Shown here one piece after another: positions 4,765 to 15,782 of a stretch of 64,000 nucleotides of DNA. The position numbers and the translations under genes are program-made. Origin of the DNA: Burkholderiaceae bacterium (GTDB lineage Bacteria > Pseudomonadota > Gammaproteobacteria > Burkholderiales > Burkholderiaceae_B); assembly GCA_023653055.1 (NCBI GenBank), contig JAMNXR010000009.1:62001-126000 (forward strand). The letters are read 5' to 3'. Numbering within the stretch: position 1 is the stretch's first letter; every line of letters begins with the position of its first letter. The notes under the pieces were generated by a model. That model was not told the DNA's origin. It made no database searches and saw only the letters and a list, made by a program, of their open reading frames with translations.

Positions 4765-6921
4765 TTAGTTCTGTTCAAAAGCGATCAGACCGGCTTCGAT
4801 TAATTCGGGTGTTACACCAAGAGACCACGCTGCAGCCGCCGCGGCAAGGATACTGCCGATGTGGTCTTGGCCAGTCTCTGGCTGCGATACTGGGATGGAT
4901 GTCATCGTGCAGAGGTTTCTGCGAACAGACCCCTCAGCCAAAATAAGTTGCCCGTGATCGATAAAGACCGCGCGCTGTCCGTTGGCGATATGTGTGATAA
5001 GGGCGGGCAGGCTTGCTTGGCTGCCAAACAGCGTGACATGACCGTCACAAAATTGCGACAACGCCATCACGCGATGATCATCGGCGTTCAGGACGGCCAT
5101 GCCATGTGGGAGCACCACGTCCATTTGGGTACGGTAAATATTAATCAGATCAAGCTCATCGCAGATCTCATACGCAGCCAAATCTTCAGTCCAGTCAACG
5201 TTGGTAATAATCCCTACCTCGCACCGCTCGTAGGCAAGGCCTTCGGTCAAAATTTGTTTGCAACCGTTTTCGATGATGACCGCTTCGACTTCGCGGTTTA
5301 ACAGAATGCGTTTGCCGTTTGCATGATCTGCGCAGTTGCCGGCGTGCAGTCGGCGGTGATTGACAAACAGACCATCACTGCAGGCGAGTCCAGTTTTCCA
5401 GCCGTGCAGGGAAAGAAGCTTGAACAGCAGTTTGCTCGTGAGCGTTTTTCCGCGTGTGCCAGTGATGCCCACGACAGGAACCCTCGCCATATCGCCGGGC
5501 GGAAAGGTATAGCCAACGATATCGCGGCCGACTTGACGTGCTCTGCCTTGCGCAGGCTTGAGGTGCATCAGCAACCCTGGCCCCGCATTGACCTCAACAA
5601 TGGCGCCAAGTTGCGCACCCAGAGGTTTAGAAATGTCTTCAACGACTAAGTCAATCCCTGCAATATCGAGTCCAACGATACGGGCTGCCGTGCATGCAAC
5701 GGCAGCAACCTCTGGATGAACGTCGTCGGTGCAGTCAAAGGCGACGTTTCCAATGCGCTGAATCGTTATTTCTTGGCCAGGTAGGGGCACATCATCAGGT
5801 GTAAAACCTTGTCGTTCTATTTCAAGTGTGGCGGCAGCGTCGAGTTTGATAAAGTTCAGCGGCTGATCTTCTTCGTGTCCACGGCGTTGATCTGCATTGA
5901 GTTGGGTATCAATTAATGTTCGGATGCTTTGTTTACCATCGCCCGTGACACATGCGTATCGACCTTTTGCAGCCGCCACGAGTTTGCCGCCTACCACTAG
6001 GAGTCGGTGTTCATGGCCACGGATGAACTGCTCAACGAGAACGCCTGAGCCTTCCTCAATCGCAACCAAATAGGCCCGCGTGATCTCATCGCGGGTGGAC
6101 AAGTTTGTAAAAACACCTCGGCCATGATTGCCATCAGTGGGTTTGACGACGACAGGCAGTCCTAAATCTTGTGCCGCGTCCCAGGCGTCCTCGGCACTCA
6201 CGACTTCTCGACCGACTGGGACGGGTACACCACAGGATTGAAGCAAGTGCTTTGTGAGGTCTTTATCGCGAGAGATAGTCTCCGCGATGGCACCTGTATT
6301 GTCAGTTTCTGCAGTCCAGATTCGGCGTTGATTGACGCCGTAGCCCAGTTGTAAAAGATTGCCTGCACTCAGTCTGATCGCAGGAATATCACGGTCATCC
6401 GCGGCATCGACAATGCAAGCGGTGCTAGGACCCAGACAATGACGCAGGCGCAGCGCATGCAGGGTATGAATCATGCTGTCGACGTCGAGCGGTTGATCAC
6501 TAAGGGCATCAAGGATCAGCGTTCGCGCAAACTTGAGCGCTTGCTGCGTCACGATTTCGTGCCAGGCACGAACGACGACCTTGTAGAGCCCGGGCTTTGA
6601 GGTGGCACGTGTTTGGCCAAACCCTCCAGGCATGCCAGCACATTGCTGCAAAACGAGTGTGAGGTGCTCGAGCAGGTGGGGAGACCACATGCCAGCGGCC
6701 AGCAAAGAAGGTGTGTCTTTGGACGCTTCGATGCCGGGCCCTGGACGGGTGAGTGCGGGGAGGGCTCGACACAGGCGTTCGTAGGCCGCGCGCATTAAAG
6801 GAGGAGGTAGGGCCTGAAAGCCATCAAACTGTATCCAAGCCTCGATTACTGGGCGGTAGGTCCAGATATTCGGCCCGCGCAAATGAATCGTGCGCAGAGT
6901 CGAGAGGTTACATGTGCTCAT
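4765..6921 (-). CDS. cphA': Cyanophycin synthetase-like paralogue with decayed Mur-ligase half
   Basis: A paralogue of the neighbouring cphA, 718 residues from the ATG at 6921; an in-frame ATG at 6978 adds 19 residues unlike CphA, and neither start has a clear ribosome site. The ATP-grasp part is intact (KPTDGNHGRGV near 260, VEVNAGPGLLMHL near 442). A P-loop is kept as GTRGKTLT (488-495), but ARGG has become NGCK and GDHLG has become WTEDL. The protein stops where the third Mur-ligase subdomain begins in CphA, so about 135 residues, including DYGHNPD, are absent. Shortened second copies next to cphA are known in Burkholderiales. A supporting or priming role rather than full polymerase activity is inference. 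Confidence 0.88.
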   Translation of the reverse strand: MSTCNLSTLRTIHLRGPNIWTYRPVIEAWIQFDGFQALPPPLMRAAYERLCRALPALTRPGPGIEASKDTPSLLAAGMWSPHLLEHLTLVLQQCAGMPGGFGQTRATSKPGLYKVVVRAWHEIVTQQALKFARTLILDALSDQPLDVDSMIHTLHALRLRHCLGPSTACIVDAADDRDIPAIRLSAGNLLQLGYGVNQRRIWTAETDNTGAIAETISRDKDLTKHLLQSCGVPVPVGREVVSAEDAWDAAQDLGLPVVVKPTDGNHGRGVFTNLSTRDEITRAYLVAIEEGSGVLVEQFIRGHEHRLLVVGGKLVAAAKGRYACVTGDGKQSIRTLIDTQLNADQRRGHEEDQPLNFIKLDAAATLEIERQGFTPDDVPLPGQEITIQRIGNVAFDCTDDVHPEVAAVACTAARIVGLDIAGIDLVVEDISKPLGAQLGAIVEVNAGPGLLMHLKPAQGRARQVGRDIVGYTFPPGDMARVPVVGITGTRGKTLTSKLLFKLLSLHGWKTGLACSDGLFVNHRRLHAGNCADHANGKRILLNREVEAVIIENGCKQILTEGLAYERCEVGIITNVDWTEDLAAYEICDELDLINIYRTQMDVVLPHGMAVLNADDHRVMALSQFCDGHVTLFGSQASLPALITHIANGQRAVFIDHGQLILAEGSVRRNLCTMTSIPVSQPETGQDHIGSILAAAAAAWSLGVTPELIEAGLIAFEQN

Positions 6922-7161
6922 AGGAAACAGTTTAGGCTGCAGAAATAATATTTTGTTGCGCTGCACAACGCCGTGCATGACTCATTATCGCAGCAAAAAG
7001 GACGGTTTGGCAGGGCCCAATCCACAGATGCTTCAATGCAAGAGTCATATGCTAGTTATACTTGCGCTATGTACACATTTTGAGCTCAGCCAAATTTCCC
7101 CAATGAACAGCTTTCTGTTGCAGTCGGCGTTCCAGACTGACGAGCCCCTTCTGTTGCAGCG
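6922..7161. promoter_or_regulatory. Divergent intergenic region between cphA' and the ABC exporter
   Basis: The longest noncoding stretch in the window (240 bases). It must hold promoters for the leftward cphA'-cphA pair and the rightward ABC-DUF1854 pair. TATACT at 7057-7062 resembles a -10 box for the plus strand, but no good -35 element is spaced to it. An 11-base direct repeat, TTCTGTTGCAG, occurs at 7113-7123 and 7149-7159, the second copy ending 2 bases before the ABC start codon. No reliable ribosome site is visible before 7162. Confidence 0.4.
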
Positions 7162-9441
7162 ATGACACCTCTCGCATCCCCTGAGCACGCACTCAGCCCA
7201 TCCATACCCAGCAGCTGGTCAGACACACTGACCGCGATGTTGGAGCCGGGTGAGCTCGTGATTGCCTGTTTAGAGCCTGATTTAGACGATCGTCTTTACT
7301 TCGCCTCTGGTGCGCTGGTGCTGTCCTCTCAGCGTGTGTTTGCTCGCGCGCCCGGTGCCGCGGATTGGCTGGTTTGGAACGTATCAACCACCCAGTCGCT
7401 TCAGCATCGCGACCATGCCGGTGTGGGGGCAATTGAGTTGTTTGATGGATCGACCCGGTTGGGCATTTGGCGTCATACGCTTGGTATGGTGCCCGCTGTG
7501 GCACGCATGGTCGAATTATTTAGTAATTTGCAAACAAAGCTGCGCGACCCCCAAGCTGAAATTGTTGTGGACGCCGCTGCCTGCCCTGCCTGTGGAACGC
7601 CTTTCGCGCCCGATCAAGACGAGTGCGCAGTGTGCGAAGCCACACCAACGGGACCCAGTGACACGTGGGCGTTGCTCCGCCTCGCCAGGTTTGCCAAGCC
7701 CTATCGCGTACCCTTGTTGGTAGGTTTGTTGTTGACGTTAATGTCCACCGCCGCTTCGCTCGTCCCACCTTATCTCACGATGCCGTTGATGGACGATGTA
7801 CTGATTCCTTTTCAGAATGGCAAGCCCATTGACTACGATTTGGTCACGCTTTACCTGACTGGCTTAGTTGTTGCGGCTTTACTAGCTTGGTTGCTTGGGT
7901 GGGCCCGTACCTATTTACTTTCTTGGGTGAGTGAGCGCATGGGTGCCGATTTGCGCACCACCACCTTCAATCACTTGCAGACATTATCTCTACAGTTTTT
8001 TGGCGGAAAACGTACAGGTGATTTGATGGCGCGCATCGGCAGTGAAACCGATCGCATCAATTTGTTTTTATCTTTGCACTTGCTGGATTTCGTCAATGAT
8101 GTGTTGATGATTTTGATGACGGCTGTCATTCTTTTATCGATTGACCCTTGGCTCGCCGTCACGACGTTGGTGCCCTTGCCGGTCATCATCTGGATGATTC
8201 ATCTTGTCAGGGACCGTTTGCGTTTTGGTTTTGAAAAAGTCGATCGTTCTTGGAGCGAATTGACCAACGTCTTGGCCGATACCATTCCAGGCATTCGCGT
8301 GGTCAAGGCGTTTGCGCAGGAAAAGCGTGAAGTCGCTCGTTTTCGCGAGGCCAATGATCGTTATTTGACCGTGAACGATCGCATCAACAAGGTCTGGGCG
8401 TTGTTTGCGCCAACAGTGACATTTTTGACTGAGATCGGTTTGCTGGTAGTGTGGATTTTCGGTATTACCCAGGTTGCTTCAAGTGCAATCAGCGTGGGGG
8501 TGTTGGCCGCCTTTCTCGCATATATCGGTCGGTTTTATACACGATTGGATTCCATGAGCCGGATTGTGACCTACACCCAACAGGCGGCAGCCGGCGCCAA
8601 GCGTATCTTTGATATTTTGGATCATGTCTCAAGCGTCCCGGATGCACAGCGCCCGGTTCCGCTCACGCGCATGGAAGGTCGCATCGAAATCCGCAATGTG
8701 GGTTTTCGCTACGGTAGCCGCACGGTGTTGCGTAACGTCAATCTGAGCATTGGTGCCGGTGAGATGATTGGTCTTGTGGGGCATAGCGGCTCAGGCAAGA
8801 GTTCACTGGTCAATCTGATTTGCCGTTTTTATGATGTCACCGAAGGTGGCATTCGTGTGGACGGGGTCGACATTCGCTCCTATTCGCTCAACTCGTTCCG
8901 AAGCAATATTGGTTTGGTGCTACAAGAGCCGTTTTTGTTTTTTGGGACGATTGCTGAAAATATCGCTTACGGTAAACCAAGTGCGACCCGCGAAGAAGTG
9001 ATCGCAGCGGCCAGAGCGGCACGTGCACACGAGTTTATTTTGAGATTGCCACAAGGCTACGACTCTCTGGTCGGTGAGCGTGGCCAGGCCTTGTCGGGTG
9101 GTGAACGTCAACGTATCTCTATCGCACGTGCGTTGCTCATCGACCCCCGCATTTTGATTCTGGATGAAGCGACCTCGTCAGTTGATACGACAACGGAAAT
9201 GGAAATTCAGGAAGCGCTGGATAATCTGATTCAGGGTCGCACAACTATTGCGATTGCGCACAGACTGAGCACTTTACGCAAAGCCGATCGCCTGGTCGTG
9301 CTTGATCGCGGACAAGTGGTTGAGATCGGCAATCATGAGGATTTGCTCGCCCGCGGTGGTGCTTACCATGCGTTGTATGAGGCGCAAACGCGACAGGTGG
9401 ATGCGGAGCCTCCACTCGCTGCAGCGAGCGAGGTCAAGTAA
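7162..9441 (+). CDS. Cyanophycin-associated ABC transporter (fused membrane and ATPase domains)
   Basis: A 759-residue exporter-type ABC half-transporter. Residues ~1-135 are a soluble N-terminal domain, followed by a zinc-ribbon-like CPAC/CAVC set (Cys 141, 144, 155, 158). A six-helix membrane domain spans ~175-480 and the nucleotide-binding domain ~505-745, with Walker A GHSGSGKS (540-547), signature LSGGERQ (644-650) and Walker B LILDEA (665-670). The next gene encodes DUF1854 and overlaps by one base (TAATG). This pair is recurrently found beside cphA in Burkholderiales and is annotated there as cyanophycin-metabolism-associated; its substrate is not known to me. The zinc ribbon and extra N-terminus are unusual for an exporter. 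Confidence 0.88.
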   Translation: MTPLASPEHALSPSIPSSWSDTLTAMLEPGELVIACLEPDLDDRLYFASGALVLSSQRVFARAPGAADWLVWNVSTTQSLQHRDHAGVGAIELFDGSTRLGIWRHTLGMVPAVARMVELFSNLQTKLRDPQAEIVVDAAACPACGTPFAPDQDECAVCEATPTGPSDTWALLRLARFAKPYRVPLLVGLLLTLMSTAASLVPPYLTMPLMDDVLIPFQNGKPIDYDLVTLYLTGLVVAALLAWLLGWARTYLLSWVSERMGADLRTTTFNHLQTLSLQFFGGKRTGDLMARIGSETDRINLFLSLHLLDFVNDVLMILMTAVILLSIDPWLAVTTLVPLPVIIWMIHLVRDRLRFGFEKVDRSWSELTNVLADTIPGIRVVKAFAQEKREVARFREANDRYLTVNDRINKVWALFAPTVTFLTEIGLLVVWIFGITQVASSAISVGVLAAFLAYIGRFYTRLDSMSRIVTYTQQAAAGAKRIFDILDHVSSVPDAQRPVPLTRMEGRIEIRNVGFRYGSRTVLRNVNLSIGAGEMIGLVGHSGSGKSSLVNLICRFYDVTEGGIRVDGVDIRSYSLNSFRSNIGLVLQEPFLFFGTIAENIAYGKPSATREEVIAAARAARAHEFILRLPQGYDSLVGERGQALSGGERQRISIARALLIDPRILILDEATSSVDTTTEMEIQEALDNLIQGRTTIAIAHRLSTLRKADRLVVLDRGQVVEIGNHEDLLARGGAYHALYEAQTRQVDAEPPLAAASEVK

Positions 9442-11063: not shown

Positions 11064-11516
11064 ATGGCTATAAACCTAACCGTCAATGGCAAATCACACA
11101 GCATTGATGTAGATCCAAGTACCCCATTGCTGTGGGCGATTCGTGAACAAGTGGGTTTGACTGGAACGAAATACGGCTGCGGCGTGGCGCAATGTGGCGC
11201 CTGTACAGTGATACTCGACGGCCAAGCCATTCGCTCCTGCGTGATTCCTGTCGCTGCTGCCGCGGGCAAAAGTGTGCAGACGATTGAAGGTCTTGCGACC
11301 GATGGCAAGCTCACAAAGCTGCAGCAAGCGTGGATCGATCACCAGGTGCCACAGTGTGGTTTTTGTCAGTCAGGGATGTTGATGGCTGCTACAGATTTAT
11401 TGGCCAAAAACCCAAAGCCTACTGATGCGGACATCGATAAGGCAGTCACAAATATTTGTCGTTGCGGAAGTTTTCAAGAAGTTCGCGCCGCGATTCACTC
11501 AGTTGCTAAAGCTTAA
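11064..11516 (+). CDS. iorA: [2Fe-2S] subunit of a molybdenum hydroxylase (IorA-like)
   Basis: Small electron-transfer subunit of a xanthine-oxidase-family hydroxylase, 150 residues. It has the plant-type ferredoxin cluster ([11 protein letters not shown] with a later Cys) and the helical second cluster (CGFCQSGM and NICRCGS), as in isoquinoline 1-oxidoreductase alpha and aldehyde-oxidase small subunits. The start at 11064 is chosen because GGGAG lies 7 bases upstream and MAINLTVNG is the family's normal beginning. It is followed 11 bases later by the large subunit and then by sox genes. The substrate is unknown; the symbol reflects homology only. Confidence 0.9.
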
Positions 11517-11527
11517 GGGGTCCTCAC

Positions 11528-13717
11528 ATGAATGCTCGCGTCCCGAATCCTTCCCGCAGACATTTTATTGTTGGCACAACTGCCGTCAGTACAGGTCTGG
11601 CTCTGGGCTTGCAGTTTCCTTTTAGTAGTCTGGCACAAGCTGCTGGCGCAACACCTGAAATCGGTGTGTGGGTCGTCATCAAGCCTGATGAAAAAGTCAT
11701 CGTGCGTGTTGTACGTTCAGAAATGGGTCAAGGCACGATTACAGGCTTGGCACAGATGGTTGCCGAAGAACTCGAATGTGACTGGAAAAATGTCACGACT
11801 GAATATCCGACCCCCGGTGAAAGTCTCAAGCTTAAAAACCCTTGGGGCTCATTTTCCACTGGCGGTAGTCGCGGTATTCGCACCTCTGAGCAGTATGTCC
11901 GTCAGGGCGGTGCCGCTGCCCGCATCATGCTTGTTCAGGCTGCCGCAGATGGCTGGAAAGTGCCGGTCGCCGAGTGTCAAGTGTCTGAGGGTGTGATTAC
12001 ACACAAGGCGACTGGACGTAAAACAACGTATGGCAAAGTCGCGGAAGCGGCCTCCAAGTTGTCCGTGCCCAAAGACATTCCTCTGAAAGATCCTAAAGAC
12101 TGGAAAATTATCGGTAAGTCGGTGCAGCGTATTGATACGTTTGCTGACAAAGTCACCGGCAAGCAGGTTTACGGGATGGACTTGGTGCTGCCGGGCATGT
12201 TGGTGGCCACCATTAAGCAGTCCCCCGTTTTTGGCGGCAAGATCAAAAGCTTTGATGCTAGCAAAGTATTGAGCATGAAAGGCGTCAAGAAAGTGGTGCA
12301 AGTCAGTGACTCGTCTGTCGCGGTTGTGGCCGATACGTTCTGGGTCGCCAAAACGGCAATGGATGCCTTGCCCATCGTTTGGGATGAGGGTCCAAATGCA
12401 AAAGTCTCGAGCGCTTCGATTGCAGCCATGCTCAAAGAGGGTTTGACGGCGGAACAGGCTTTTGTTGGCAATCAGCGTGGCGATACTAAAGCTGCATTGA
12501 CTGGCGCGGCTAAGAAAATCGAATCCACTTATTTCTATCCCTTCCTGAATCACGCTCCAATGGAAGTGATGAACGCGACGGCCAAGTGGACACCAGAGCG
12601 TTGCGAGGCCTGGGTCCCAACTCAGGATGGCGAGGCCTCATTGGCTGCGGTGATCGCGGCCTCTGGTTTGCCAGCGGATAAGTGCGATGTTTACAAAATC
12701 AATTTGGGCGGTGGTTTCGGTCGTCGAGGTGCCTTCCAGGACTACACTACACAGGCTGTCAATATCGCCAAGCAAATGCCTGGTGTGCCAGTCAAACTGA
12801 TCTGGACACGCGAAGAAGATATGACGCAGGGACGCTACCATCCCGTCATGATGTGCAAAATGACGGGCGCGTTTGATGCAAACAAAAAACTGACCGGTGT
12901 GCATATGCGTTTGTCTGGCCAGTCGATTTTGGCGGCTGTGCGTCCAGCGATTGTGGAAAAAGACAAAGGCCGTGATATTTTAGTTTTTCAGGGTCTCATG
13001 GAAGGCGGCGAGCACTCTATTGGTTATGAGTTCCCCAATCAGTTGATCGATCACGCGATGCGCAATACACACGTGCCTCCAGGCTTCTGGCGCGGTGTGA
13101 ACGTTAACCAAAACGCGATTTTCATCGAGTGCTTTATGGACGAGCTCGCGCATGAAGCCGGTATGGACCCCGTTGCATTCCGCCGTCAATACATGGCCAA
13201 GTTCCCCCGCAACTTAGCGGCGCTCAATGCTGTCGCCGATGGAATCGGTTGGAGCAAGCCAGCGCCTAAGGGTGTCCATCGCGGCGTGGCGCAAATGATG
13301 TCATTTGGCAGCTATGTGGCCGCAGCCTGCGAGCTTTCTGTGACGGACGGTACCAAAGTCAAGATCCACCGCATTGTGGCGGCAACTGATTGTGGTTATG
13401 CCGTCAATCCCGCTCAAATTGAACGTCAAGTTTCGGGATCTTTTGTCTACGGCTTGTCCGCTTTGTTTGAAGAAGAGTGCACAATCAAAGACGGGCGCGT
13501 TGAACAAAAGAACTTTGATACCTTTAATTCAATTCGCCTCAAACAGATGCCTAAGGTTGAAACGATCATTATTCAAGGTGGTGGTAAGGCTTGGGGCGGT
13601 ATTGGTGAGCCAACCATCAGCGTGGCTGCTCCTGCCGTATTGAATGCAATCTTTGCCGCAACGGGTAAGCGTTTGCGTGACGTACCTTTGAAAAATAGTG
13701 GCATGACGTTGGTATGA
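11528..13717 (+). CDS. iorB: Molybdopterin-binding large subunit (IorB-like), Tat-exported
   Basis: Catalytic subunit of a molybdenum hydroxylase, 729 residues, single-polypeptide form lacking an FAD domain. The N-terminus has a twin-arginine signal (SRRHFIVG followed by a hydrophobic stretch), so the complex should act in the periplasm. Molybdopterin-contact motifs include GGGFGRRG and the C-terminal GGIGEPT, whose Glu is the usual active-site base. Relatives hydroxylate N-heterocycles or oxidise aldehydes and pass electrons to a cytochrome c. Here soxX starts inside its stop codon (ATGA, 13714-13717), so a SoxAX-type cytochrome is a plausible electron acceptor. That pairing is inference. 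Confidence 0.9.
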   Translation: MNARVPNPSRRHFIVGTTAVSTGLALGLQFPFSSLAQAAGATPEIGVWVVIKPDEKVIVRVVRSEMGQGTITGLAQMVAEELECDWKNVTTEYPTPGESLKLKNPWGSFSTGGSRGIRTSEQYVRQGGAAARIMLVQAAADGWKVPVAECQVSEGVITHKATGRKTTYGKVAEAASKLSVPKDIPLKDPKDWKIIGKSVQRIDTFADKVTGKQVYGMDLVLPGMLVATIKQSPVFGGKIKSFDASKVLSMKGVKKVVQVSDSSVAVVADTFWVAKTAMDALPIVWDEGPNAKVSSASIAAMLKEGLTAEQAFVGNQRGDTKAALTGAAKKIESTYFYPFLNHAPMEVMNATAKWTPERCEAWVPTQDGEASLAAVIAASGLPADKCDVYKINLGGGFGRRGAFQDYTTQAVNIAKQMPGVPVKLIWTREEDMTQGRYHPVMMCKMTGAFDANKKLTGVHMRLSGQSILAAVRPAIVEKDKGRDILVFQGLMEGGEHSIGYEFPNQLIDHAMRNTHVPPGFWRGVNVNQNAIFIECFMDELAHEAGMDPVAFRRQYMAKFPRNLAALNAVADGIGWSKPAPKGVHRGVAQMMSFGSYVAAACELSVTDGTKVKIHRIVAATDCGYAVNPAQIERQVSGSFVYGLSALFEEECTIKDGRVEQKNFDTFNSIRLKQMPKVETIIIQGGGKAWGGIGEPTISVAAPAVLNAIFAATGKRLRDVPLKNSGMTLV

Positions 13718-14169
13718 CGTTTAGAGTGATTGGGTGGTGGCTAAAGATTGGCCTTGTTTTTTTAGTACCCCCCATCACTCTTGCTCAGCCAGTCGGATCA
13801 AACACGGTTGAGGGGGAGGTCATTGTTGACTCCCTCTCGGGTGTGCCAGGAGATCCCGTACGTGGCCGAGCGATTGTCCTAAGCCGTCAAAGCGGGCTGT
13901 GTATTTTGTGTCATAGTGGTCCATTCCCTGAGGAACGTTTTCAAGGCAATCTGGCACCCGATTTAGCGATAAGTGCTGCTAGACTGTCTGAAAGTCAGTT
14001 GCGGGCGAGGCTGGTAGATGCCCGCCGTTTTAATCCAGACACGATCATGCCGCCTTATTTCACCAAGGATCATGGCACGCGGGTTGCGCCTCAATTCGCC
14101 GACAAGACCTTGTTAAGTGCGCAGGAAATCGAGGATGTTTTGGCATTCTTAATGAGTTTAAAACCATGA
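13714..14169 (+). CDS. soxX: SoxX-like monoheme cytochrome c
   Basis: Periplasmic c-type cytochrome of 151 residues: a hydrophobic N-terminal signal (cleavage near LAQP), one heme site CILCH (63-67), and the DTIMPPYF segment supplying a Met ligand near residue 112, followed by the SoxX-like C-terminus LSAQEIEDVLAFLMSLKP. In the sulfur-oxidising system SoxX pairs with SoxA to attach thiosulfate to SoxY. It overlaps iorB by 4 bases and soxY by 4 bases. A generic class I cytochrome was considered, but soxY, soxZ and soxA follow at once. Confidence 0.88.
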   Translation: MTFRVIGWWLKIGLVFLVPPITLAQPVGSNTVEGEVIVDSLSGVPGDPVRGRAIVLSRQSGLCILCHSGPFPEERFQGNLAPDLAISAARLSESQLRARLVDARRFNPDTIMPPYFTKDHGTRVAPQFADKTLLSAQEIEDVLAFLMSLKP

Positions 14170-14618
14170 GCACAAACCGTAGAACCTTTATCGCTGCAAT
14201 CGGGACCGTCAGCCTCATCCCTTGGCTCAAGACGCATGCAACGGTCTCCGAAGCATCCGAAGCCATTCAAAAAATAGTTGGAAACAAACCGCTGCAAGAC
14301 GGTCGTGTCACGCTCGATATCTCCCCTTTAGTAGAAAATGGCAATCTTGTCCCCATCAGCGTATTGGTGGATAGCCCAATGACGCAGGCAGACCATGTCA
14401 AAGCGGTGCATGTGATTTCCGAAGGCAATCCTCTTCCTAGTGTGGTGAGCTTTTATTTCGGTGCACGTGCTGGCCGCGCTGTGGTTAGTACGCGGATACG
14501 GTTATTGACGTCTCAGCGCTTGTGGGCGATTGCCGAAATGAATGATGGCTCATTTTGGCAGGGGCATGCCAATACACTCGTTACGCTTGCTGCCTGTACA
14601 GAGGACATATTGATATGA
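14166..14618 (+). CDS. soxY: SoxY-like sulfur carrier subunit with atypical C-terminus
   Basis: 150-residue SoxY homologue with a Tat signal (NRRTFIA plus hydrophobic segment), the conserved NLVPISVLVDSPM region and the beta-sandwich core. Canonical SoxY ends in GGCGG, where the flexible-arm Cys carries the sulfur substrate. Here the tail reads TLAACTEDILI: one Cys remains at the matching place, but the flanking glycines are Ala and Thr and six residues follow. Sulfur-carrier function is therefore uncertain. The start overlaps soxX by 4 bases and the stop overlaps soxZ by 4 (ATGA at 14615). Confidence 0.85.
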   Translation: MSTNRRTFIAAIGTVSLIPWLKTHATVSEASEAIQKIVGNKPLQDGRVTLDISPLVENGNLVPISVLVDSPMTQADHVKAVHVISEGNPLPSVVSFYFGARAGRAVVSTRIRLLTSQRLWAIAEMNDGSFWQGHANTLVTLAACTEDILI

Positions 14619-14947
14619 GTAAAACTTCGCGCACAGTCGTCTCCATGGCAAAGACCGCGACGCGGGGCGAGGTTGTTCCGATTCGCGTGATTGTCCAGCA
14701 CGATATGGAGTCTGGCTTTAGACACACCGATCGAGGCGTGCGGGTCCCCAGAGATATCATCCGTGACTTTGTCTGCACCTATGATGGCGTAGAGGTATTT
14801 CGTGCTGAGTTGCATCCTGCTGTTGGCGCGAACCCGACTTTCAGTTTTTTCACTGTCGCGACCCAAACTGGAACGCTTGAGTTTAAATGGAAGGGCGACA
14901 ACGGCTATGCCTCCAGTGTGTCTAGCCAACTGACGGTCACGGGATAG
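14615..14947 (+). CDS. soxZ: SoxZ, partner of SoxY
   Basis: 110-residue SoxZ protein, leaderless as usual because it is co-exported with Tat-dependent SoxY. The diagnostic HDMESGFR segment near residue 30 and the C-terminal FKWKGDNG region are present. The ATG overlaps the soxY stop (ATGA), which decides the start over an upstream in-frame ATG at 14555 that lies deep in soxY. Forms the SoxYZ carrier complex. Confidence 0.92.
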   Translation: MSKTSRTVVSMAKTATRGEVVPIRVIVQHDMESGFRHTDRGVRVPRDIIRDFVCTYDGVEVFRAELHPAVGANPTFSFFTVATQTGTLEFKWKGDNGYASSVSSQLTVTG

Positions 14948-14975
14948 CGTGCGTCTGTTTTCAAGGGCGGCGGTC

Positions 14976-15782
14976 ATGCGCGCGTTGGGGTTATTCTTAC
15001 TCTTGGCCTACGTTTTTTTAGGTGGGCAAACGGTACAAGCTCAAACATCGCTTGATTCTGCATCAGCAAGCTTGTCAAAGACGCCAGATAAACGCCAATC
15101 TAGTTATTGGCTGATGTCACCTCAAACCCGTGCGATGCAGGACGATGAAGCACTCAATCCCGCAACCTTTTGGGTATTGGACGGGCAAACGCTTTGGAAT
15201 ACGCCTGCAGGCAATAAAAATATCTCCTGTGCGCAGTGCCATGGAGATGCTGCCGTCTCAATGAAGGGCGTTGCCGCGAGTTTTCCAAAAATGGTGCATA
15301 AAACATTGTTGAGCCTGGAAGGTCAAATCAACATGTGTCGCCAAAACAAGCAAGAGGCTGCTCCGTTTGCGCTTGAAAGCAAACCCTTATTATCGATGGC
15401 AAGTTATCTGGGCAATGTTTCCAAAGGCATGCCGATTACAGTCGAACGAACAGCTAGCAATGCCGTTGATCTCGATGCAGGTCAGCGTTTATTTGAGCAG
15501 CGTATTGGGCAGCTCAATTTATCTTGTGCACAATGCCACGCAGAGCGGGCGGGCCTCAAACTCGGTGGCAATCTCATTCCCGAAGCGCATCCCAACGGCT
15601 ATCCGATTTACAGGCTCGAATGGCAGACAGTCGGATCGTTACAGCGGCGTTTGCGAAACTGCATGACCGGCGTGCGTGCTGAGCCATACGCTTTAGGTGC
15701 TCAGGAGTTAGTGCAGCTTGAACTCTTTTTGATGTGGCGCGCACGTGGAATGCCGCTTGAAACGCCTGGTGTGCGGCCTTAG
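14976..15782 (+). CDS. soxA: SoxA diheme cytochrome c
   Basis: Catalytic subunit of the SoxAX L-cysteine S-thiosulfotransferase. It has a signal peptide ending near VQAQ and two heme sites (CAQCH twice, at 15228-15242 and 15525-15539). RNCMTGVRAEP near the C-terminus carries the conserved active-site Cys. The ATG at 14976 has AAGGG 8 bases upstream; a GTG start at 14949 would add nine residues. This is the diheme type. It is the last gene of the iorAB-soxXYZA operon and overlaps the convergent phosphatase gene by 4 bases. No soxB, soxC or soxD lies in the window. Confidence 0.92.
   Translation: MRALGLFLLLAYVFLGGQTVQAQTSLDSASASLSKTPDKRQSSYWLMSPQTRAMQDDEALNPATFWVLDGQTLWNTPAGNKNISCAQCHGDAAVSMKGVAASFPKMVHKTLLSLEGQINMCRQNKQEAAPFALESKPLLSMASYLGNVSKGMPITVERTASNAVDLDAGQRLFEQRIGQLNLSCAQCHAERAGLKLGGNLIPEAHPNGYPIYRLEWQTVGSLQRRLRNCMTGVRAEPYALGAQELVQLELFLMWRARGMPLETPGVRP

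Follow-up and report, generated by a model that had tools for sequence, protein, structure and literature searches.

The DNA analysed here (the window) is a stretch of 64,000 nucleotides from contig JAMNXR010000009.1 of a Burkholderiaceae bacterium (contig C19 of genome G000, which comprises 2.84 Mb in 30 contigs and is 95% complete). We examined in it a tight, operon-like run of six open reading frames (ORFs), iorA-iorB-soxX-soxY-soxZ-soxA, all on the forward strand at positions 11064-15782. Adjacent genes overlap by 4 bases at iorB/soxX, soxX/soxY and soxY/soxZ, and are separated by 11 bases at iorA/iorB and by 1 base at soxZ/soxA. A first-pass annotation had described this order and the three overlaps, both of which were confirmed from the ORF coordinates and family models; its statement that soxB and soxCD are missing was also borne out, as family models run on the ORFs of the operon found no soxB, soxC or soxD within it.

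The first two genes encode a molybdenum hydroxylase of the xanthine dehydrogenase family. The product of iorA (11064-11516) is the small subunit with two [2Fe-2S] clusters (PF00111, Fer2, and PF01799, Fer2_2), and that of iorB (11528-13717) is the molybdopterin large subunit (MoCoBD_1/MoCoBD_2, PF02738/PF20256). IorB has a twin-arginine translocation (Tat)-type leader, SRRHF, at residues 9-13, and a GIGEP motif whose glutamate E694 (13607-13609) we take to be the active-site residue. Of 112 operon-linked IorB sequences with a full N-terminus, 108 keep the RRx[FILMV] leader pattern and 111 keep GxGEP, so that the earlier proposal of a Tat-exported hydroxylase agrees with a putative leader that is widely conserved. 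The closest solved protein is the large subunit of an aldehyde dehydrogenase (8gy3_C, E 8e-70, similar across almost the whole length; the next best hit had E 6e-22). All NCBIfam matches of IorB were xanthine dehydrogenase-family models below their cut-offs, and the SoxC-family model TIGR04555 was not among them. IorAB therefore shows the marks of the IorAB/AldH type, namely the molybdenum domains, the GxGEP glutamate, the two-[2Fe-2S] small subunit and a Tat-type leader on the large subunit. Enzymes of this type pass electrons to cytochromes.

The remaining four genes encode Sox proteins. SoxX (13714-14169) is a monohaem cytochrome c recognized by TIGR04485 (73.7 bits, cut-off 61), with no Pfam match at E 0.001; a single CxxCH is present in 115 of 116 operon-linked sequences. 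SoxY (14166-14618), with the Tat-type leader NRRTFI and carrier cysteine Cys144, belongs to the AACIE-arm type (TIGR04487, 192.8 bits, cut-off 172). It falls short of the thiosulfate-type model TIGR04488 (82.8 vs. 125 bits) and of TIGR04557 (53.4 vs. 140), and its tip reads AACTE instead of Gly-Gly-Cys-Gly: in the alignment of iorB-linked with soxB/soxC-linked SoxY, A143-C144-T145-E146 (14592-14603) stands where canonical proteins have G-C-G-G. Its partner SoxZ (14615-14947; PF08770, 80.1 bits, cut-off 25) starts at an internal ATG of a longer ORF listed from 14555 and scores below the SoxZ_true cut-off (68.3 vs. 76 bits). SoxA (14949-15782, GTG start) is a dihaem protein (TIGR04484, 209 bits, cut-off 110; PDB 1h31, E 5e-36) which has the cysteine haem ligand C238 (15660-15662) and keeps R222 and R234; the CxxCH haem motifs of SoxA are retained in this lineage.

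A separate full sox cluster, whose presence in the genome was a question raised with the first-pass annotation, was found on contig C27. It consists of soxC (625.6 bits), soxY (168.7, tip GGCGG), soxZ (123.4), soxA (250), soxX (75.4) and soxB (876.2), all above their family cut-offs. We read an adjoining ORF next to soxC, which has cytochrome c domains and matched no NCBIfam model, as soxD. Upstream of this cluster, on the other strand, lies a copy of fccB with both flavocytochrome c sulfide dehydrogenase domains (PF21706 and PF09242), and we read a small protein, whose cytochrome match is below threshold, as its haem partner.

The operon is not peculiar to this genome. Of 268 genomes of the family, 25 passed the TIGR04487 cut-off, and all of these belong to the same genus (25 of its 32). 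In each of the 24 other genus members with AACIE-arm SoxY, the genes soxX-soxY-soxZ come after iorB; soxA is present in 23 of these loci (L005 reaches its contig end before soxA) and one locus shows only the end of iorB. A scan of named genomes, from which 80 of 138 relatives were kept, added Zwartia, Sheuella, Jezberella, many Polynucleobacter, Comamonadaceae and other metagenome-assembled genomes (MAGs). The operon includes iorB in 75 of these 80 loci, and two of the others, L111 and L140, are truncated at a contig end. The two sets overlap, since Sheuella amnicola, Jezberella montanilacus and Zwartia panacis are the genus members G237, G239 and G240. Two MAG records titled Bordetella parapertussis (L066 and L080, apparently the genus members G242 and G244) also carry the operon, and their names are probably wrong. 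At larger distances, TIGR04487 was above cut-off in 15 of 398 genomes sampled across the phylum, in 21 of 385 from the class of G850, which we read as Alphaproteobacteria (and one genus in it as Bradyrhizobium), and in one of 369 sampled from the window's own class, this one being the genome studied here. The search for the gene order in other genomes thus found it conserved in Alpha- and Betaproteobacteria, and the possibility that it occurs in this genome only did not hold. A chance or single-genome fusion was rejected on the same grounds, the order being present in 24 of 24 genus relatives with AACIE-arm SoxY and beyond. Phage-borne copies were likewise rejected, no relative having turned up in the one scan made of viral contigs.

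Plasmids provided a held-out check, as they were found with a different query. A tblastn search of a plasmid collection with the SoxY of L168 returned 62 records, mostly ordinary SoxY by rank and name; the best four were Neorhizobium galegae (two), Methylobacterium sp. NMS14P and Roseomonas marmotae, which agrees with the reading of the G850 class as Alphaproteobacteria. On pNgVX, pNMS14P1 and p1318-3, matches to iorA, iorB and fccB surround soxX-soxY-soxZ-soxA, with no soxB or soxC match within 16 kb at the operon, and the tips are PAC, AAC and GAC, respectively. The fccB gene lies between iorB and soxX in pNgVX and pNMS14P1 and behind soxA in Roseomonas p1318-3, whose record names the operon's SoxY a 'thiosulfate oxidation carrier protein'. 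The iorB match in N. galegae pNgVX (L272) contains a change of reading frame, and no iorB appears in the gene table, which is incomplete. By PLSDB typing pNgVX is a conjugative megaplasmid; L273 and L274 are two other alphaproteobacterial plasmids with the operon.

To relate the SoxY tip to its genomic partners, we took the best SoxY of 166 loci (80 named, 86 fetched) with an 8 kb neighbourhood. The fetched loci include 8 from the scan of the own class, 22 of 35 from that of the phylum and 61 of 82 from that of the G850 class, some being in two lists. The 166 loci were chosen by a TIGR04487 search and are related to one another, so that their counts are not independent, and weaker matches were picked partly because their alignment reached past the carrier cysteine, which favours variant members. 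Among 128 loci with an x-Ala-Cys tip, iorB is nearby in 117 and soxB or soxC in none; among 34 with a Gly-Gly-Cys tip, iorB is nearby in none and soxB and/or soxC in 25. Leaving out the named loci, iorB is near 42 of 48 x-Ala-Cys loci and none of 34 Gly-Gly-Cys loci. Position 143 is Ala in 119 of 119 iorB-linked SoxY and Gly in 25 of 25 with soxB/soxC, and position 146 is Glu in 108 of 119 vs. Gly in 25 of 25. Of the 11 x-Ala-Cys loci without iorB, four (L111, L140, L190 and L215) are truncated at contig ends. The idea that the weaker SoxY matches are further variant members was rejected, as none of the 34 fetched loci with a Gly-Gly-Cys tip has iorB nearby. Loss of the Gly-Gly-Cys-Gly tip fits a system without SoxB, which has no need of it. 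Four loci have other tips: L060 reads SGC, and L247, L261 and L264 have longer C-termini. L261 and L264, both iorB-linked, look like more distant versions, with iorAB (doubled in L261), fccB and soxXA downstream of soxYZ, and a SoxY C-terminus extending past the usual tip; L261 also has an upstream ORF with three CxxCH motifs.

A tree of SoxY plus SoxZ was built by a quick method from 102 of the 166 loci, with the tip columns removed and midpoint rooting. All 57 iorB-linked rows lie on one side of a single branch (65 rows) and none outside it; the Shimodaira-Hasegawa-like approximate likelihood ratio test (SH-aLRT) gave this branch 93, which falls below 95, the level starred by the program, and gave 98 to a core of 59 rows. 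L057 and L266, which have a GAC tip and no iorB nearby, were placed outside the iorB-linked clade, and by this placement their tips are separate changes. At least three changes of the tip and eight of the iorB state are required by this tree. These numbers agree with a single shared origin followed by losses of iorAB (contig cuts accounting for some) and with two GAC tips that arose separately. Judged from this sample, the operon's SoxYZ is one lineage.

SoxA differs from its canonical counterparts at a site ahead of the Cys haem ligand. TsdA, taken as a model of SoxA, binds thiosulfate through Arg109, Arg119 and Ser127, with Arg109 lying 14 and Arg119 4 residues ahead of the Cys ligand; SoxA proteins share Arg119 without exception and have lysine or serine at the Arg109 position (excerpts of PMC4423706). 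Position -14 in the window is E224 (15618-15620), corresponding to TsdA Arg109, whose role is described in the same excerpts. Counting gap-free from the Cys ligand, with 115 of 118 iorB-linked sequences readable and a canonical set of 16, position -14 is acidic in 110 of the 115 (Glu 107, Asp 3), compared with K (11), A (3), S (1) or R (1) in the canonical proteins. Glu is also found at this position in all three of the named plasmids found later. The Arg at -4 is kept in 113 of 115 and 16 of 16, respectively, and among the 118 iorB-linked SoxA sequences C238 is present in 116, R222 in 115 and R234 in 113. The possibility that soxXYZA is a decayed remnant was rejected because catalytic residues are retained.

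The operon does not depend on SoxB, as it is found in genomes without SoxB above cut-off. Among the 32 genomes of the genus, 17 have AACIE-arm SoxY together with SoxB, one more (G259) has it with a piece of SoxB, and one has neither; seven of the 25 with AACIE-arm SoxY lack SoxB above cut-off (G237, G239, G252, G256, G260, G261 and G265; G237 and G239 are 98-100% complete), and six have SoxB without AACIE-arm SoxY. The named genomes without SoxB, Sheuella amnicola and Jezberella montanilacus, are the same genomes as the G237/G239 pair. Among 44 genomes read as Alphaproteobacteria and searched for SoxB, 40 have iorB beside AACIE-arm SoxY, and SoxB was above cut-off in 14 of these and not in 26. 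Of the latter, 22 are at least 95% complete, and G1224, G971, G869 and G1357 are in one contig. Six of the 26 (G1360, G1094, G1202, G1157, G1290 and G1357) hold a distant SoxB-like hydrolase (114-174 bits vs. a cut-off of 550). In G1121 and G1306, which have the operon and are outside the 44, soxB lies near a canonical soxY (L245 and L246). An obligate role of the operon within a distant thiosulfate cluster was rejected on account of these SoxB-less genomes. As for the alternative raised in the first-pass annotation, that soxXYZA acts with distant soxB/soxCD, a canonical cluster does exist in this genome, and an obligate dependence on it does not stand.

Experimental reports touch on relatives of the operon. 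In Bradyrhizobium diazoefficiens only soxY1 of the canonical locus was essential for thiosulfate oxidation, and soxY2 was not (a passage of PMC5748708 citing a 2010 paper). We infer that soxY2 is of the AACIE type, because all ten Bradyrhizobium-like genomes fetched have SoxB above cut-off plus an iorAB-soxXYZA operon. For a Polynucleobacter, Hahn and others listed three sox clusters, including a four-gene one (Pnuc_1154-1157), and proposed energy from inorganic sulfur such as H2S, by their own account not experimentally confirmed (excerpts of PMC3308952). We take Pnuc_1154-1157 to be the operon's soxXYZA. On Vigna radiata, more nodules were formed by a Bradyrhizobium guangxiense mutant with an insertion in soxA; excerpts of PMC7324677 do not tell which soxA was hit.

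The most frequent additional gene of the operon is fccB, which accompanies 45 of 119 iorB-linked loci (17 of 75 named, after soxA; 28 of 44 others, nearby). The order iorA-iorB-fccB-soxX-soxY-soxZ-soxA was observed in ten Bradyrhizobium-like places and four of family f226, and a small one-haem cytochrome gene precedes fccB in four of five loci read ORF by ORF (it is absent in L174). The FccB of L168, the one tested, matches the solved sulfide dehydrogenase 5n1t (E 7e-147). Behind soxA in L179 are genes for XdhC/MobA-like, MoaA-type, MoaE, molybdopterin-binding, MoaC and MoeA proteins, with like families in L180-L182. Altogether 96 ORF families recur in at least three of 43 loci, the recognized ones being iorAB, fccB with the small cytochrome c, soxXYZA and the cofactor genes (four loci); no accessory gene naming a substrate was recognized among the 61 of 96 families listed, which include opposite-strand shadow ORFs, no models having been run on the rest. 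A tandem second iorAB (IorB 53-56% identity) lies upstream of iorA in seven loci (L070, L073, L075-L078 and L084), and four Polynucleobacter-type genomes (L154-L157) have a second iorAB away from the operon. In L155 and L156 this copy is followed by a membrane protein, which in L156 has a ferric-reductase-like domain and looks like MsrQ. Upstream of the operon in the window itself are, as judged by eye, a cyanophycin-synthetase-like protein (4765-6978, reverse strand) and an ABC exporter (7162-9441, forward strand). A scan for promoters and terminators found three promoter-like sites vs. 4.5 in shuffled sequences and nine terminator-like sites vs. 6.4, which is of no use for fixing the limits of the operon.

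Based on these data, we propose with a probability of about 0.4 that the operon encodes a Sox variant free of SoxB and SoxCD, in which SoxXA would load a compound other than thiosulfate, probably an organic thiol, onto SoxYZ and IorAB would oxidize it. By oxidation, SoxXA would form a disulfide between Cys144 of SoxY and a reduced sulfur compound, most likely a small organic thiol. The organic group bound in this way might then be hydroxylated by IorAB, probably on the carbon adjacent to sulfur; the C-S bond would open, leaving SoxY with a persulfide and yielding an oxidized carbon product. FccB, which is within the operon in many relatives and here may be represented by the copy beside the canonical sox cluster, would oxidize or remove the sulfane or sulfide, and SoxX would pass the electrons of IorAB and SoxA on to the cytochrome c pool. 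A substrate other than thiosulfate is suggested by the acidic SoxA residue and by the finding that only soxY1 is essential for thiosulfate oxidation in B. diazoefficiens, sulfur chemistry by the linkage of fccB, and carbon chemistry by the aldehyde dehydrogenase as nearest solved relative of IorB; an organic thiol would account for all parts together. The first-pass annotation had suggested a distinct periplasmic system acting on an organosulfur, N-heterocyclic or aldehyde substrate. A distinct periplasmic system, with an exported hydroxylase as partner of SoxXA and SoxYZ, is supported by our results; we prefer the organosulfur option, and an N-heterocycle or free aldehyde seems less likely in view of SoxXA, SoxYZ and FccB. 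The stronger claim, that this is an undescribed periplasmic organosulfur pathway in which hydroxylation by IorAB of a SoxYZ-bound carbon adjacent to sulfur cleaves the C-S bond, is possible although on balance doubtful; hydroxylation of a protein-bound substrate would, to our knowledge, be new for the xanthine dehydrogenase family. Such a pathway might, with the same doubt, be spread among soil and plant-associated Alphaproteobacteria, on chromosomes and megaplasmids, and among freshwater Polynucleobacter and Zwartia.

A number of observations weigh against this proposal. Seven x-Ala-Cys loci (L113, L123, L130, L229, L238, L266 and L057) are real exceptions without iorB nearby. In three of them (L113, L123 and L130) soxXYZA is kept and iorAB is gone from the locus, so that soxXYZA may work without IorAB; their genomes hold an IorB paralogue (53-54%) elsewhere, and in L123, a Polynucleobacter, what remains of iorA ahead of soxX, about its first 30 residues (8390-8479, E 1.7e-4), is a sign of iorAB loss. 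SoxB is present in 30 of 32 named genomes checked (of 80) and may still help where present, and fccB is not within 8 kb in 74 of 119 iorB-linked loci, including the window's operon. As for SoxA, E224 is one of 11 columns that separate the two lineages, with only 16 sequences in the canonical set, and lineage alone yields such differences; E224 was singled out by its place. The stronger thiosulfate residue, TsdA Arg119 (R234 here), is retained, and R109A in TsdA raises the Michaelis constant for thiosulfate only moderately (an excerpt of PMC4423706), so that the acidic residue lowers the case for thiosulfate and does not abolish it. Finally, the proposed chemistry is derived from protein families.

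Other explanations have to be considered. In the main rival, which appears unlikely, IorAB is a new sulfane dehydrogenase replacing SoxCD, which would convert the terminal sulfane on SoxY-S-S to a sulfinate or sulfonate; it is similarly unlikely that in this way the operon, together with FccB, oxidizes sulfide or sulfur to sulfite or thiosulfate without SoxB. That IorAB occupies the place of SoxCD and is likewise a molybdenum enzyme, the frequency of fccB (45 of 119) and the retention of C238, R222 and R234 in SoxA all count in favour of such a scheme. On the other hand, the enzymes of the xanthine dehydrogenase family known to us act on carbon, the closest relative of IorB with a solved structure is an aldehyde dehydrogenase, and release of a sulfonate from SoxY without SoxB would be left unexplained. 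That same relative would suit an improbable alternative by analogy, in which SoxYZ carries an aldehyde as a thiohemiacetal, IorAB converts it to a thioester or acid and SoxXA only takes up electrons. SoxYZ-like carriers do occur in alcohol dehydrogenase clusters (excerpts of PMC12997753 and PMC11237559), the carriers beside pyrroloquinoline quinone (PQQ) enzymes being a possible parallel, but the SoxA Cys ligand and conserved arginines are kept, which resembles a loading enzyme and not a mere wire, FccB indicates sulfur, and no SoxH-like hydrolase was recognized in the part of the recurring families that was listed without running models.

Nor do simpler roles fit well. It is quite improbable that IorAB is an ordinary hydroxylase of N-heterocycles or aldehydes, for which SoxX or SoxXA is a mere electron acceptor and SoxYZ incidental: electron transfer to cytochromes is usual for IorAB-type enzymes, and soxX overlaps iorB in the window, but soxY, soxZ and soxA stay linked to them in Alpha- and Betaproteobacteria with a changed tip and the carrier cysteine kept, and three genomes lost iorAB at the locus and yet kept soxXYZA. 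A second loading module of the thiosulfate pathway, working with distant soxB/soxCD, is very improbable, having already been weakened by the SoxB-less genomes. It would agree with the presence of SoxB in 30 of 32 named genomes, in 14 of 40 of those read as Alphaproteobacteria and in the genome studied here; however, SoxB does not reach its cut-off in the other 26 of the 40 or in 7 of the 25 genus members with AACIE-arm SoxY, a further 6 genomes of the genus have SoxB without that SoxY, the tip that canonical partners would meet is altered, and soxY2 of B. diazoefficiens, of the AACIE type by our inference, is not needed for thiosulfate oxidation (PMC5748708, the same passage).

The proposed SoxB/SoxCD-free variant may be compared with known systems. 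It shares with canonical Sox the haem motifs and Cys ligand of SoxXA, the C-terminal carrier Cys of SoxYZ and the export of its proteins, and differs in the lack of SoxB and SoxCD alongside, the Ala-Cys tip, the acidic SoxA site, IorAB inside the operon and fccB in 45 of 119 loci. The large subunit of the aldehyde dehydrogenase 8gy3 is the nearest solved relative of IorB; the 8gy3 enzyme has a three-haem cytochrome subunit, which is absent from the operon here, and is not known to be associated with SoxXYZA. The flavocytochrome c sulfide dehydrogenases (PDB 5n1t and 1fcd) resemble FccB of the extended operons, which is absent from the window's operon. Quinoprotein dehydrogenase-associated carriers (TIGR04557; SoxYZ-S2/S4 in excerpts of PMC11237559) likewise combine a SoxYZ-like carrier with an oxidoreductase for carbon compounds, and differ in having fused SoxYZ, PQQ enzymes and SoxH. 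Other SoxY variants with other partners have also been published (same excerpts). The operon's SoxY is a member of NCBIfam TIGR04487, 'SoxY-related AACIE arm protein' (SoxY_para_1); judged by the model name, no partner, operon or function is stated there, and the link to iorAB and the SoxA change is added here. No description of iorAB with soxXYZA was found in titles and abstract starts of open-licence full texts, and an earlier description elsewhere is possible. The Sox carrier cycle is known and the SoxY family already named, and its combination with a different catalytic partner is, as judged from gene neighbourhoods, widespread.

The genes soxX, soxY, soxZ and soxA are commonly taken as marks of thiosulfate oxidation, although the lineage of this operon is distinct in tip, SoxA site and partner. 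It is found in Polynucleobacter, relatives of Zwartia and many Alphaproteobacteria, often beside ordinary thiosulfate genes and, in good part, without SoxB. Two residues provide a sequence test to tell the systems apart, the one preceding the carrier Cys of SoxY and the one 14 residues before the Cys ligand of SoxA. If the operon handles organic sulfur, a part of the freshwater and soil organosulfur cycle would at present be misbooked as thiosulfate oxidation.

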